Assembly: GCF_014805525.1 (NCBI RefSeq) | Contig: NZ_JACFSZ010000008.1 | Location: 1 to 64,000, forward strand | Origin: Rhabdothermincola sediminis | Lineage (GTDB): Bacteria > Actinomycetota > Acidimicrobiia > Acidimicrobiales > Acidimicrobilacustridaceae | Direction: 5' to 3' | Length of the DNA stretch: 64,000 nt | Program-made: the position numbers and the translations under genes | Shown: in pieces, positions 2,407 to 48,603 of the stretch | How positions within the stretch are numbered: the stretch's first letter is position 1 | How the letters are laid out: each line of letters opens with the position of its first letter | Notes under the pieces: model-generated | Databases searched by the model: none | The model's input: the letters and a program-made list of their open reading frames with translations, nothing else | What the model was told of the DNA's origin: nothing

Positions 2407-3308
2407 GCGTCCCCAGCGGCCTCGTCATACCCGAGCCCACCGTCGTCGAACCGGACGGCACAGTACCGAACGCGGCTACCGAGCCTCGCGTGGTGGGCGA
2501 GCCGCCACCGCTCCGGCGGGGTCCCGGCCGGCTGGCCGAAGGCATCAGGTCAGTAGTATTCGGCCTGCTCGGCGTCGTGTTGTTCGGCGTGGCGTGGGCG
2601 GTCGTGAGTGCTCGGTCGGGCCAGCTTCCGGGGCCTCTCCAGACGTCGAGCACCCTCATCCAACTGCTCACCCGAGCGTTCGAGGCGGACGGACCGGCCG
2701 GTCAAGGTATCGGGTTGCAGTTGCGAGACTCGCTGGTGCGGGTGCTCAAGGGGTTCCTCCTCGCGGCGGCCATCGGTGTCCCGGTCGGCTTCGCGATGGG
2801 GGTGGTGCCGCCGATCCGCCGGATGCTCAACCCGATCGTGCAGGTACTACGGCCGGTGTCGCCTCTGGCGTGGTTCCCCATCTGGCTCACGATCATGGTC
2901 AAGGCCGACCCGGCTGCGGTGTGGGTGATCTTCGTGTCCGCCGTGTGGCCGACGATCCTCAACACCGCTGCGGGTGCGGTGAGCGTCCCACTCGACCAGC
3001 TCGAGGTGGCGAGGGTGTTCCGGTTCTCCCGAGCCACGCAGCTTCGCGAGGTGGTGATCCCCCACGCCTTGCCGTCGGTGGTGACGGGGCTGCGCCTCTC
3101 CATGGGGGTGGCGTGGATGGTGATCGTCGCCGCGGAGATGCTCTCCGCTGCGTCGGGCATCGGGTTCTACGTCTGGCAGTCCTACAACGGTCCAGGTCTG
3201 ACGCATGTCATCTCCGCGGTACTGCTCATCGGCGCCACGGGCCTCGTGCTCGACCTGGGGTTCCAGGCGCTGGGACGGCGGGTCGCTCACGAGGAGGTGC
3301 GGTCGTGA
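2403..3308 (+). CDS. ABC transporter permease, NrtB/SsuC/TauC type
   Basis: A 301-residue inner-membrane permease of the binding-protein-dependent family. About 55 polar N-terminal residues precede the first membrane helix, followed by five to six hydrophobic segments. The EAA loop that docks to the ATPase lies in the cytoplasmic stretch around LEVARVFRFSRATQLREV, preceding IPHALPSVVTGLR. The ATG at 2403 overlaps the stop of the binding-protein gene, and the ATPase GTG overlaps its own stop, so the three genes are translationally coupled. Confidence 0.88.
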   Translation: MSVPSGLVIPEPTVVEPDGTVPNAATEPRVVGEPPPLRRGPGRLAEGIRSVVFGLLGVVLFGVAWAVVSARSGQLPGPLQTSSTLIQLLTRAFEADGPAGQGIGLQLRDSLVRVLKGFLLAAAIGVPVGFAMGVVPPIRRMLNPIVQVLRPVSPLAWFPIWLTIMVKADPAAVWVIFVSAVWPTILNTAAGAVSVPLDQLEVARVFRFSRATQLREVVIPHALPSVVTGLRLSMGVAWMVIVAAEMLSAASGIGFYVWQSYNGPGLTHVISAVLLIGATGLVLDLGFQALGRRVAHEEVRS

Positions 3309-30918: not shown

Positions 30919-30947
30919 CCGGCTCGGTACCGGATCCGCAGGCTCGG

Positions 30948-31032
30948 CGGAGGGAGTGGGATTCGAACCCACGGTGGGTTGCCCCACACACGCTTTCCAA
31001 GCGTGCCGATTCGGCCGCTCTCGCATCCCTCC
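30948..31032 (-). tRNA. tRNA-Ser (anticodon GGA)
   Basis: A class II tRNA of 85 nt without encoded CCA. The acceptor GGAGGGA pairs with TCCCTCC, the anticodon loop CTTGGAAAG shows GGA, and a long variable arm and GGTTCGAATCC T-arm follow. It is nearly identical in its ends to the CGA tRNA-Ser 3 kb away. Confidence 0.94.
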
Positions 31033-31070
31033 AGGGTGACGTCCCAGCACGGGAACGCAACCGGTGAGGC

Positions 31071-31076
31071 TATCCT
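31071..31076 (+). promoter_or_regulatory. -10 box TATCCT of the SRP RNA gene
   Basis: TATCCT ends 7 nt before the first paired base of the SRP RNA at 31084, the spacing expected for a transcription start there. No clear -35 was found. Confidence 0.4.
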
Positions 31077-31083
31077 GTGGGCC

Positions 31084-31219
31084 GGCCCGCTCTCGCACGT
31101 GGTGGTCGGGTCCTGTGCAATCGGAGCCCGTGAACCGAGTCAGGGCCGGGAGGCAGCAGCTCTCAGCGGGACCTGCGGTGTGCCGCAGATCGCCTGACCA
31201 CCACGTGGGAGAGCGGGCC
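31084..31219 (+). ncRNA. ffs: Signal recognition particle RNA (4.5S type)
   Basis: The region holds the SRP core: GTGAACC, then GTCAGGGCCGGGAGGCAGCA, and later GTGCCGCAGAT and GCCTGACC. Its ends (31084-31107 and 31196-31219) pair over 24 positions with a single mismatch, forming a long closing helix. The RNA binds Ffh and targets membrane proteins. It lies just upstream of dnaX, a common actinobacterial position. The exact ends are inferred from the helix. Confidence 0.85.
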
Positions 31220-45025: not shown

Positions 45026-47017
45026 TCAGCGTGACCGGTGGGCCACCACCAGGTCGACGATGTCGCCCATCAACCGGCCGAGCTCGAAGTCCTTCGGGGT
45101 GTAGACCGCGGCCACTCCTGATTCGAGCAGCCGGGGGCGGTCGTCCTCGGGGATGATCCCGCCCACCACCACGGGGCTGTCGATGCCCTCGGCTCGCAGC
45201 AGGCGGAGTACCTCCGGCACCAGGTCGAGGTGGCTGCCCGAGAGGATCGACAGTCCCACGAGGTCGACGTCTTCGTCCCGGGCCACCGCCGCGATCTGCT
45301 CGGGCGTCAAACGGATGCCCTGGTAGACGACCTCCATGCCGGCGTCGCGGGCGGCCACCGCGATCTGCTCGGCCCCGTTCGAGTGCCCGTCGAGACCGGG
45401 CTTGGCCACCAGGAATCGGGGGGGCCCGCCCGGCAGGGCCTTCACCCGCTCGGCCACCTCGCGAAGCGTCGTGCTCAACCCGCCCACGCCCACGGCGGCG
45501 GCCACACCCGTCGGCGCTCGGTACTCGCCGAACACCTCCCGCAGCGCACCGGCCCACTCGCCGGTGGTGCCGCCGGCATGGGCGAGGTCGATGGTGGCCG
45601 GCATGATGTTCGCGCCGGTCTCGGCGGCCCGGCGCAGCTCGTCGAGGGAGCGCTTCACGGCGTCGTTGTCGCGATTCGATCGCCAGGCCTGCACGTCGGC
45701 GATCATCTCTTCCTGCACCGCGGGGTCGACCTTGAGGATGTTCTCCTCCCCGCCGAGTGGGGACGCCTCGGTCTCGGTGAAGGCGTTGACCCCCACCACC
45801 ACCTGCTCGCCGGTCTCGATGCGGCGGGTGCGCTCGGTGTTCGAGGCCACCAGCCGCCCCTTCAGTTCCTCGATGGCTTCGAAGGCGCCGCCGAGGGCGA
45901 GGACCTCGTCGAGCTCGGCCTGCGCGGCCTCGATCAGCTCGGCGGTCTTGGCCTCGATGACCCGGGACCCGTCGAAGAGGTCATCGTACTCGAGCAGGTC
46001 GGTCTCGAAGGCCAGTACCTGCTGCATGCGCAACGACCACTGCTGGTCCCACGGCCGGGGAAGGCCGAGGGCCTCGTTCCACGCCGGGAGCTGGATCGAT
46101 CGGGCCCGAGCCCGCTTGGAGAGCGTGACCCCCAGCATCTCGAGCACGATGCGCTGCACGTTGTTCTCGGGCTGTGCCTCGGTGAGACCGAGTGAGTTGA
46201 CCTGCACGCCGTAGCGGAACCGGCGCAGCTTCGGGTCTTCCACGCCGTAGCGCTCGGCGGTGATGCGGTCCCAGAGGTGCGTGAACGCCCGCATCTTGCA
46301 GGTCTCCTCGACGAAGCGGATGCCGGCGTTGACGAAGAACGAGATCGAGCCCACCACCGCCGGGAACCGCTCCGGGGGCACCTGGTCGCTGGCCCGCACC
46401 GCGTCGAGCACGTCGATCGCGGTGGCCAGGCTGTAGGCGATCTCCTGTACGGGGGTGGCGCCCGCCTCCTGCAGGTGGTAGCTGCAGACGTTCATCGGGT
46501 TCCACTTGGGGATCCACTCCGAGCAGAAGGCGATCATGTCCACGATCAGCCTCTTGGACGGCTCGGGCGGGAAGATGTAGGTGCCCCGAGAGAGGTACTC
46601 CTTCACGATGTCGTTCTGGGTGGTGCCCCGGAGCTGGCGGGACTCGACCCCTTGGGTCTCGGCGTTGGCCACGTAGAGGCCGAGCAGCCACGCGGCGGTG
46701 GCGTTGATGGTCATCGACGTGTTCATCTCGCCCGGCGGGATGCCGTCGAGGAGCTGGCGCATGTGTCCGAGGTGGGCGACCGGGACCCCGACCTTGCCGA
46801 CCTCGCCTCGCGCCTGGGGGTCGTCGGGGTCGTAGCCGGTCTGGGTGGGCAGGTCGAAGGCGATCGACAGGCCGGTCTGTCCTTTCGCCAGGTTGGTGCG
46901 GTACAGCTCGTTGGACGCCTTGGCGGTGGAGTGCCCCGAGTAGGTGCGCATGAGCCAGGGTTTGTCCCGCTCGCGGGCGGGAGGCTGGCGGGGGTGGTGG
47001 CGGCCGGGGTCGGTCAT
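45026..47017 (-). CDS. meaA: MeaA-type adenosylcobalamin mutase (ethylmalonyl-CoA mutase)
   Basis: A 663-residue single-chain acyl-CoA mutase. The N-terminal TIM barrel has TYSGHSTAKASNELY, GLSIAFDLPTQTGYD, MNTSMTINATAAWLL and RGTTQNDIVKEYLSRGTY. The C-terminal B12 domain carries GLDGHSNGA (DxHxxG, His ligates cobalt) and later VVGGIIP. The length and one-chain layout fit MeaA/Ecm rather than the 730-residue MCM or the 560-residue IcmA. It would convert ethylmalonyl-CoA to methylsuccinyl-CoA downstream of Ccr and Mce. Substrate specificity needs a biochemical check. Confidence 0.88.
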   Translation of the reverse strand: MTDPGRHHPRQPPARERDKPWLMRTYSGHSTAKASNELYRTNLAKGQTGLSIAFDLPTQTGYDPDDPQARGEVGKVGVPVAHLGHMRQLLDGIPPGEMNTSMTINATAAWLLGLYVANAETQGVESRQLRGTTQNDIVKEYLSRGTYIFPPEPSKRLIVDMIAFCSEWIPKWNPMNVCSYHLQEAGATPVQEIAYSLATAIDVLDAVRASDQVPPERFPAVVGSISFFVNAGIRFVEETCKMRAFTHLWDRITAERYGVEDPKLRRFRYGVQVNSLGLTEAQPENNVQRIVLEMLGVTLSKRARARSIQLPAWNEALGLPRPWDQQWSLRMQQVLAFETDLLEYDDLFDGSRVIEAKTAELIEAAQAELDEVLALGGAFEAIEELKGRLVASNTERTRRIETGEQVVVGVNAFTETEASPLGGEENILKVDPAVQEEMIADVQAWRSNRDNDAVKRSLDELRRAAETGANIMPATIDLAHAGGTTGEWAGALREVFGEYRAPTGVAAAVGVGGLSTTLREVAERVKALPGGPPRFLVAKPGLDGHSNGAEQIAVAARDAGMEVVYQGIRLTPEQIAAVARDEDVDLVGLSILSGSHLDLVPEVLRLLRAEGIDSPVVVGGIIPEDDRPRLLESGVAAVYTPKDFELGRLMGDIVDLVVAHRSR

Positions 47018-47099: not shown

Positions 47100-47624
47100 T
47101 CACGGCCACGGGACGGGTGGCCGGTCGATTGCCTCGGCGAGCAGCTCGAGGTACCGGTCGCGGCTGACGTCGATGGCGCCGAGGGACCGCAGGTGCGGGG
47201 TGGTCCACTGCACGTCGAGCAGGCTGGCTCCGTTGCCGGCCAGCAGATCGACCAGCGCCACCAGGGCCACCTTCGACGCGTCACGCCGGCGGTGGAACAT
47301 CGACTCACCGGCGAACAGCCCGCCGATCGACACCCCGTACAGCCCCCCGGCGAGCGTGCCGTCGGCCCACGCTTCCACGCTGTGGGCCCACCCGAGCCGG
47401 TGGAGCCGGGTGTAGGCCCGGATGATGTCGGGGGTGATCCATCCTCCCTCACGCTCGGGTGACGCGCAGGCCTCGATCACCTCGGCGAAGGCGGTGTCGA
47501 TCCGGATTTCGAAGCGGCGCAGCGAGGCCCGAAGCGAGCGGGAGACGCGCAGGCTGTCGAGGGGCAGGATGCCTCGCGGGTCGGGCGACCACCAGGCGAT
47601 CCGCGGGCCTCGTCCGATCGGCAT
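47100..47624 (-). CDS. aat: Leucyl/phenylalanyl-tRNA-protein transferase, start codon unresolved
   Basis: The enzyme adds Leu/Phe to proteins with basic N-termini for ClpS-ClpAP-type degradation. The core GGLYGVSIGGLFAGESMF is intact, followed by LLDVQWTTPHLRSLGA. The first ATG (47624) gives 174 residues, but Aat homology continues upstream to about 47755: RWAFPP, then VVGIGADLEPGTLLAAYRAG, then IFP. That stretch has no in-frame ATG, GTG, TTG or CTG. Either a rare codon is used, a base is missing, or the protein is truncated. It follows the hydroxybutyryl-CoA dehydrogenase gene. Confidence 0.75.
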   Translation of the reverse strand: MPIGRGPRIAWWSPDPRGILPLDSLRVSRSLRASLRRFEIRIDTAFAEVIEACASPEREGGWITPDIIRAYTRLHRLGWAHSVEAWADGTLAGGLYGVSIGGLFAGESMFHRRRDASKVALVALVDLLAGNGASLLDVQWTTPHLRSLGAIDVSRDRYLELLAEAIDRPPVPWP

Positions 47625-47751
47625 GGGGAAGATGCCCGCCCGGTAGGCGGCGAGGAGGGTGCCGGGTTCGAGGTCGGCGCCGATGCCGACGACGCCGTTG
47701 TCGTCCGCGTCGGACGCCGGTGGGAACGCCCAGCGGCTCGGAGGGGGTTCC

Positions 47752-48603
47752 TCAGCCGTAGTCGTAGAAGCCCTTGCCCGACTTGCGACCGAGATGGCCG
47801 GCCGAGACCATCCGGCGCAGCAGCGGCTGGGGGGCGTAGTTGGGGTCGCGGAACTCGTCGTAGAGGGCGTCGAGGATGGCGAGGGAGGTGTCCAGGCCGA
47901 CGAGATCCAGCAGGGCCAGCGGGCCCATCGGGAAGTTGCACCCGCCCTTCATCGCCGCGTCGATGTCGTCGCGTGACGCCGTGCCGTTCTCGAGCATCCG
48001 CACCGCGTTATTCAGGTACGGGAACAGCAGCGCGTTGACGATGAAGCCGGCCCGGTCCTTCACCTCCACCGGGGTCTTGCCGCAGGCGGTGGCGAACTCC
48101 CGCACCTGTTCGATCGTCTCGTCCGAGGCGGTGAGGGGCCGGACGATCTCCACCAGCGACATCATCGGAGCCGGGTTGAAGAAGTGGACCCCGCACACCT
48201 GCGACGGGCGGTGGGTCTCCATGGCCAGCTCGATCACCGGCAGCGTCGAGGTGTTGGTGGCCAGGATGGCCTCGTCCTTGACGATGTGGTTGAGCTCGAC
48301 GAACAGCTCCTTCTTGGTGGCCAGGTCCTCGACGATGGACTCGATCACCAGGTCGCAGTCCGCCAGGTCACCCAAGCTGGAAGTGGCGCTCACCCGGGCC
48401 AGGGTGGCGTCGCGGTCGGCGGCCTCCAGCTTGCCCTTGTCGACCTGCTTGGCGAGCGACTTCTCCAGCGCGGCGATCATCGCGTCGGCGGTGTGCTGCT
48501 GGCGGGAGCGGAGTACCACGTCGAAGCCGGCTTTGGCCGCCACCTCCGCGATGCCCGACCCCATGATCCCCGAACCCACGATTCCCACGCGCTTGATCGT
48601 CAT
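47752..48603 (-). CDS. 3-hydroxybutyryl-CoA dehydrogenase
   Basis: A 283-residue NAD-dependent 3-hydroxyacyl-CoA dehydrogenase of the Hbd/PaaH/FadB2 type. The Rossmann motif is GIVGSGIMGSGIAEV; catalytic parts are NTSTLPVIELA, HFFNPAPMMSLVEIV (His-Glu) and a C-terminal GFYDYG. It interconverts acetoacetyl-CoA and (S)-3-hydroxybutyryl-CoA. TAACGT (48612-48617, minus) lies 8 nt before ATG 48603. In this region it may feed crotonyl-CoA formation, although a beta-oxidation role is also open. Confidence 0.92.
   Translation of the reverse strand: MTIKRVGIVGSGIMGSGIAEVAAKAGFDVVLRSRQQHTADAMIAALEKSLAKQVDKGKLEAADRDATLARVSATSSLGDLADCDLVIESIVEDLATKKELFVELNHIVKDEAILATNTSTLPVIELAMETHRPSQVCGVHFFNPAPMMSLVEIVRPLTASDETIEQVREFATACGKTPVEVKDRAGFIVNALLFPYLNNAVRMLENGTASRDDIDAAMKGGCNFPMGPLALLDLVGLDTSLAILDALYDEFRDPNYAPQPLLRRMVSAGHLGRKSGKGFYDYG

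Follow-up and report, generated by a model that had tools for sequence, protein, structure and literature searches.

A leucyl/phenylalanyl-tRNA–protein transferase gene without a canonical start codon behind hbd in Rhabdothermincola sediminis, and its startless counterparts in related genomes

Background

How is a conserved protein to be translated, when its homology begins well upstream of the first usable start codon of its frame? The question is raised by aat, the gene for leucyl/phenylalanyl-tRNA–protein transferase, in a stretch of 64,000 nucleotides of the R. sediminis genome (G000:C8:1-64000, here called the window), a 3.29 Mb draft of 49 contigs. An earlier note, made from the letters alone, had found no start codon for the N-terminal domain of this gene, and had left the choice between a rare start coupled to the stop of the preceding gene, a sequencing indel and a real truncation. 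Non-canonical starts and translational coupling are both already known; what appears to be new is the recurrence of startless aat genes. Judged by titles and the first lines of abstracts, the literature held no report of such a recurrence, no publication on aat start codons, those of Acidimicrobiia included, and nothing relevant on ACG starts in bacteria.

An intact aat gene without a canonical start

The frame, open from stop to stop at 47100-47948 of the minus strand, contains the following features:

47100..47759, minus strand: aat, leucyl/phenylalanyl-tRNA–protein transferase, 219 codons, stop excluded, for a start at ACG
47622..47624, minus strand: ATG, first canonical start codon, coding for residue M45 by codon count of the aat frame

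The product belongs to the Aat family: PF03588 matches it with 4.5e-67 and 225.3 bits, against a cut-off of 22.7, and TIGR00667 with 190.4 bits, against a curated cut-off of 143.55 in the profile search, and both fold and conserved residues fit. It is the only aat match in the genome. The AlphaFold model has a mean pLDDT of 95, with values of 89-98 in the five ten-residue blocks at its N-terminus, where a strand (22-25) and a helix (31-39) are predicted, and its nine best PDB matches, found by Foldseek, are all E. coli Aat. The E. coli enzyme (PDB 2Z3K, 2CXA, 2DPS) is of the same family and fold, with TM scores (query) of 0.88-0.90 and 42-44% identity; compared with it, the protein has no unusual feature, and the difference lies in the start only.

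Within the 108 codons leading from the upstream in-frame TGA to the ATG at 47624, hence along the conserved N-terminus, ATG, GTG, TTG, CTG, ATA and ATT are all absent, which bears out the earlier note for the four codons it had named. Its further remark, that only ATC and ACG occur, was right about their presence (4 and 6 instances, respectively), but overlooked GTC, found three times. Homology does extend upstream of the first ATG, as had been claimed, over about 42 codons rather than 45, ending near 47750 and not 47770: for 167 of the 217 loci similarity sets in at residue 3, the E of the motif EPPPSRW (codon 47750), for the others within residues 1-9, so that the conserved part of Aat begins about 42 codons ahead of the ATG. 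A codon-usage score obtained by training on long frames of the genome itself (coding windows average 0.54, sd 0.31) is 0.46 for residues 1-44 and falls to -0.92 over the 44 codons upstream, a drop which places the beginning of the coding region near the stop of the preceding gene. As judged from its sequence, aat is an intact, conserved gene for a housekeeping enzyme, lacking the usual start codon.

The junction with hbd

The aat frame overlaps, as previously noticed, the 3' end of a hydroxybutyryl-CoA dehydrogenase gene, which reads ...TTC TAC GAC TAC GGC TGA, the terminal TGA lying at 47754-47752. The junction and its surroundings are made up as follows:

47752..48603, minus strand: hbd, 3-hydroxybutyryl-CoA dehydrogenase, upstream partner (Pfam PF02737/PF00725, NCBIfam PRK07819)
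47752..47754, minus strand: TGA, stop of hbd, 1 nt ahead of aat residue 3
47757..47759, minus strand: ACG, putative start of aat, where relatives most often start, with an overlap of 8 nt with hbd
47763..47765, minus strand: second ACG (-5), alternative start, located by codon count
47771..47775, minus strand: AAGGG, weak Shine-Dalgarno-like sequence, 11 nt ahead of the ACG, a match of only 4 nt
45026..47017, minus strand: methylmalonyl-CoA mutase gene, downstream of aat (PF01642 4.4e-128, PF02310)

In 84 of 175 unique loci a canonical start is found exactly 3 codons before EPPPSRW (GTG in 43, ATG in 33, TTG in 8); at this position, the commonest one among relatives, the window carries the ACG at 47759-47757. 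Were aat to start there, the two same-strand genes would overlap by 8 nt, within the overlaps or short distances typical of coupled pairs. The presence of the ACG is by itself no evidence of selection, since the FYDY(G) end of Hbd (TAC|G) forces this codon into the aat frame; as TAC makes up 95.3% of the tyrosine codons in the genome sample, an ATG at the overlap would require the rare TAT.

The best Shine-Dalgarno match is 4 nt long, unlike the strong or extended sites of the sigR and S. aureus cases discussed below. Of the relatives with a canonical start, just 18% (linked) and 21% (unlinked) have a match of 4 nt or longer, which makes weak sites normal for aat. A homologue of the mutase lies downstream of aat in 34 of the 41 hbd-linked loci with enough DNA; it is also seen in 27 of 79 unlinked ones.

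Conservation of the N-terminal segment

Translation from the ATG at 47624 would drop eight near-invariant residues (W9, G26, D28, T33, Y38, G41, F43 and P44), each present in no fewer than 97% of rows. Over residues 3-43 the window protein is well conserved for its divergence, ranking 194 of 216 from the bottom, and all 55 near-invariant Aat residues are kept; the 216 proteins used for the rank, the tree and the near-invariant residues do not include L189. No mark of a pseudogene, be it a stop, a frameshift or a lost near-invariant residue, was found in the gene.

None of 217 aat loci contains an early stop, defined as one before residue 211 in the best alignment, while 51 single changes in the window gene would produce a stop and 7 would destroy a start. 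This speaks against decay as an explanation for startless aat genes in general, with the proviso that the loci were drawn from the better matches, so that broken copies are under-sampled; in G050, not among the fetched loci, aat is split between frames. The gene is dispensable in the order, given that an Aat match is present in 197 of 298 genomes. The partner adaptor of Aat, ClpS, occurs in 58 of 61 genomes, R. sediminis included, and a patchy aat is thus set against a nearly universal ClpS across relatives.

Startless aat genes in related genomes

The survey comprised, after collapsing identical ones, 217 aat loci, 60 linked to hbd and 157 unlinked, some of them from actinobacteria outside the order; they are part of the matches, lower-scoring and some contig-edge ones being left out, and one search contributed its best 80. 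Loci were called startless when ATG, GTG and TTG were all missing from 40 codons before to two codons after the anchor. By this definition startless genes number 7 of 60 among linked and 0 of 157 among unlinked loci (p=9e-5), a comparison whose underlying hypothesis had itself been derived from part of these data. The seven are L001 (the window), L014, L126, L136, L174, L218 and L258, three of which expose fewer upstream codons: 12 in L136 (contig end), 14 in L014 and 16 in L258 (the open frame itself). As L136 sits in a truncated contig, where hbd linkage and a 7-nt gap were assigned by eye, the count was repeated without it and without the window, giving 5/58 against 0/157 (p=0.0013).

Shorter limits preserve the excess down to a point. 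At 16 codons, 9/60 linked and 3/157 unlinked loci are startless (p=6e-4; 7/58 and 3/157 without L136 and the window, p=0.005), at 12 codons 11/60 and 7/157 (p=0.002), while at 8 codons, in an earlier set of 175, the excess is gone (9/48 and 30/127), because many unlinked aat genes start 9-12 codons upstream. The hbd genes themselves provide a baseline: a start within 16 codons is missing in none of 40 (p=0.010 against the 9/60 of aat). The linked/unlinked contrast is somewhat inflated, since fewer in-frame starts arise by chance in linked loci: per codon, 1.6% (unlinked 2.3%) at -40..-25 and 1.8% (unlinked 4.0%) at -24..-17. On the tree, the startless state requires at least 7 changes for eight rows (L211, described below, included) and hbd linkage 24; a tree-aware comparison of the two yields only 3 independent pairs on supported branches, with a median p of 1.

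Startless genes are over-represented at tight junctions. Where at most 10 nt separate the hbd stop from the motif, 3 of 4 loci are startless, against 4 of 56 with a larger gap (p=0.004); apart from the window, these short junctions are those of L136 (7 nt), L126 and L133 (both 10 nt). In four of the seven startless linked loci the distance is 25-48 nt, and their near-cognate candidates are ambiguous; such codons near the hbd stop of the startless loci other than the window were not counted as evidence. The codon at -3 is ATC in L126, and L174 has CTG at -7; residue 11, just after W9, is encoded by ATG in L174 and L218 and by TTG in L126. L174 and L218 form a pair of mutually nearest rows, and the lack of a start which they share speaks against random error. 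The best-scoring relative of the same family, L002 (G009), has a GTG start and 26 nt from hbd stop to motif, against 1 nt in the window. Taken together, the recurrence of startless aat genes behind hbd suggests that translation may restart at an unusual codon after the hbd stop.

Some loci deserve separate mention. L211 (G077), unlinked to hbd, has CTG at -3, 1 nt after another apparent TGA, and no canonical start within 35 codons upstream. The startless gene of G166 (L174/L217) departs from the consensus at near-invariant Y38, A114 and R199, and may be decaying, as far as its sequence indicates. The hbd of L002 (G009:C10) aligns in two pieces of one frame (residues 1-182 and 206-283), with about 74 extra codons between them, and its identity was for this reason left unused.

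Start codons elsewhere in the genome

A frequent use of odd starts in this genome was rejected: among 283 gene-like frames in 384 kb, coding signal ahead of the first canonical start was found only in aat and in one frame of L143, by a scan that detects cases with at least 25 codons ahead of that start and would therefore miss closer ones. The L143 frame (L143:3180-4190, G000:C4) resembles, by eye, a relaxase/helicase of a conjugative element and is interrupted in frame by a stop near 3225, beyond which Pfam gives no match.

A further case lies outside the 384-kb sample. In infC (L221 about 1474; G000:C5 near 168036) no canonical start occurs between the upstream stop and the conserved N-terminus, and the likely start, on sequence grounds, is an ATA 9 nt after GAGGAG; an ATA start of infC is also described for S. 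aureus (PMC13009471).

As to other elements, the window carries at 30946-31202 a tRNA-Ser(GGA) gene (minus strand) and a gene for the bacterial small SRP RNA (plus strand), divergent and 71 nt apart. A PADLOC search returned 0 families, and a scan of viral contigs gave 5 pattern stretches and no relative.

Discussion

The reading that we favour, with a probability somewhat above one half (about 0.56), is that aat is functional and starts at a non-canonical codon, most likely the ACG at 47759-47757, by re-initiation after the hbd TGA. Ribosomes would terminate at this TGA and re-initiate five bases back, at a weak ACG overlapping hbd by 8 nt; such termination-reinitiation coupling would keep Aat at a low level, in step with hbd. 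What we infer here comprises initiation itself, the codon used, the coupling and the low level. Among the options of the earlier note, the rare start with coupling to the hbd stop thus has the best support, as the ACG occupies the position at which relatives most often start, and startless aat genes are found behind hbd in other loci too. In E. coli, ACG is a very weak start. All 64 codons have reportedly been measured as starts there (Hecht 2017).

Aat might, on the other hand, be made hardly or not at all in this strain, its start having been recently lost, either by a deletion in the hbd-aat spacer or by a start-codon change silent in hbd, with no decay yet. We regard this as unlikely, in spite of the dispensability of aat in the order, of the 26-nt gap and GTG of L002 where the window has 1 nt, and of the bias towards TAC, by which codon preference would favour ACG over ATG at the overlap: the gene has no other lesion, its N-terminus is well conserved with every near-invariant residue in place, the partner adaptor ClpS is present, and startless genes recur with no early stop in the whole survey, under-sampled as broken copies are in it. 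An error in sequencing or assembly, hiding a base or spacer that in reality supplies a canonical start, is to be considered improbable. A single base change from ACG to ATG, silent for hbd, would be enough to account for it, in a draft of 49 contigs and with no congener among the 60 other relatives searched. Both aat and hbd, however, are intact, each in its own frame, and junctions of 7-10 nt exist in other genomes, which leaves the indel proposed by the earlier note unsupported; the other startless loci, the nearest-neighbour pair and the hbd baseline make random error improbable across genomes, though not for a single one.

Two further possibilities were rejected. A shortened Aat, beginning at the ATG at 47624, has in its favour that this is the first canonical start in frame, and is very improbable, because it would lose a well-conserved segment: eight near-invariant residues (W9 to P44) would go, along with a strand and a helix of high pLDDT in the model and the beginning of the Pfam domain; the same observations speak against the truncation considered in the earlier note. 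A +1 frameshift at the hbd stop, resulting in a Hbd-Aat fusion, would suit the aat frame, which is +1 relative to hbd with no stop in between, and is nevertheless hardly credible: the hbd stop precedes the aat motif in 60 of 60 linked loci, with a smallest gap of 1 nt (L136 assessed by eye), none of these relatives is fused, and GGC TGA lacks the slippery character of the prfB site.

A start at ACG by re-initiation would share features with several known systems. In Streptomyces, a GTC start of sigR, repressed by IF3, has been proven experimentally (PMC5472188): like aat, this is an actinobacterial non-canonical start missed by annotation, with low translation, a property only proposed for aat, but sigR has a AGGAGGTG ribosome-binding site and experimental proof, while aat features ACG, a weak site and a proposed overlap with the end of the upstream gene. 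S. aureus uses AUU and AUA starts, and near-cognate starts, in cvfC1, ccpN and citZ as well as in infC with its AUA-type start, keep expression low, as suggested for aat; extended Shine-Dalgarno motifs are described for these cases, in contrast to the 4-nt match of aat (PMC13009471). Overlap or very short distance favours termination-reinitiation, which was nearly abolished by about 20 nt in the pairs tested, and a spacing of -8 nt, that proposed for hbd-aat, is shared by 62 H. volcanii pairs (PMC10666635). Coupled overlapping genes resemble hbd-aat in their overlap or closeness, differing from it in the ATG or GTG starts described for them (PMC6728339, PMC10666635).

More tentatively, and with more doubt than confidence on our part, the pattern might extend to the hbd-aat-mutase operons of Acidimicrobiales as a whole, where canonical initiation of aat would have been given up repeatedly, re-initiation on ACG, ATC, CTG or GTC tying an N-degron enzyme, at a low level, to acyl-CoA metabolism.

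Should this view hold, the demands on the start codon would be relaxed wherever a ribosome is passed on from an upstream stop, and gene-finding programs would overlook such genes or cut them short. Startless aat genes would then offer natural junctions for measuring near-cognate re-initiation without a strong Shine-Dalgarno sequence, and would provide a case of an N-degron enzyme kept low by its own start codon.
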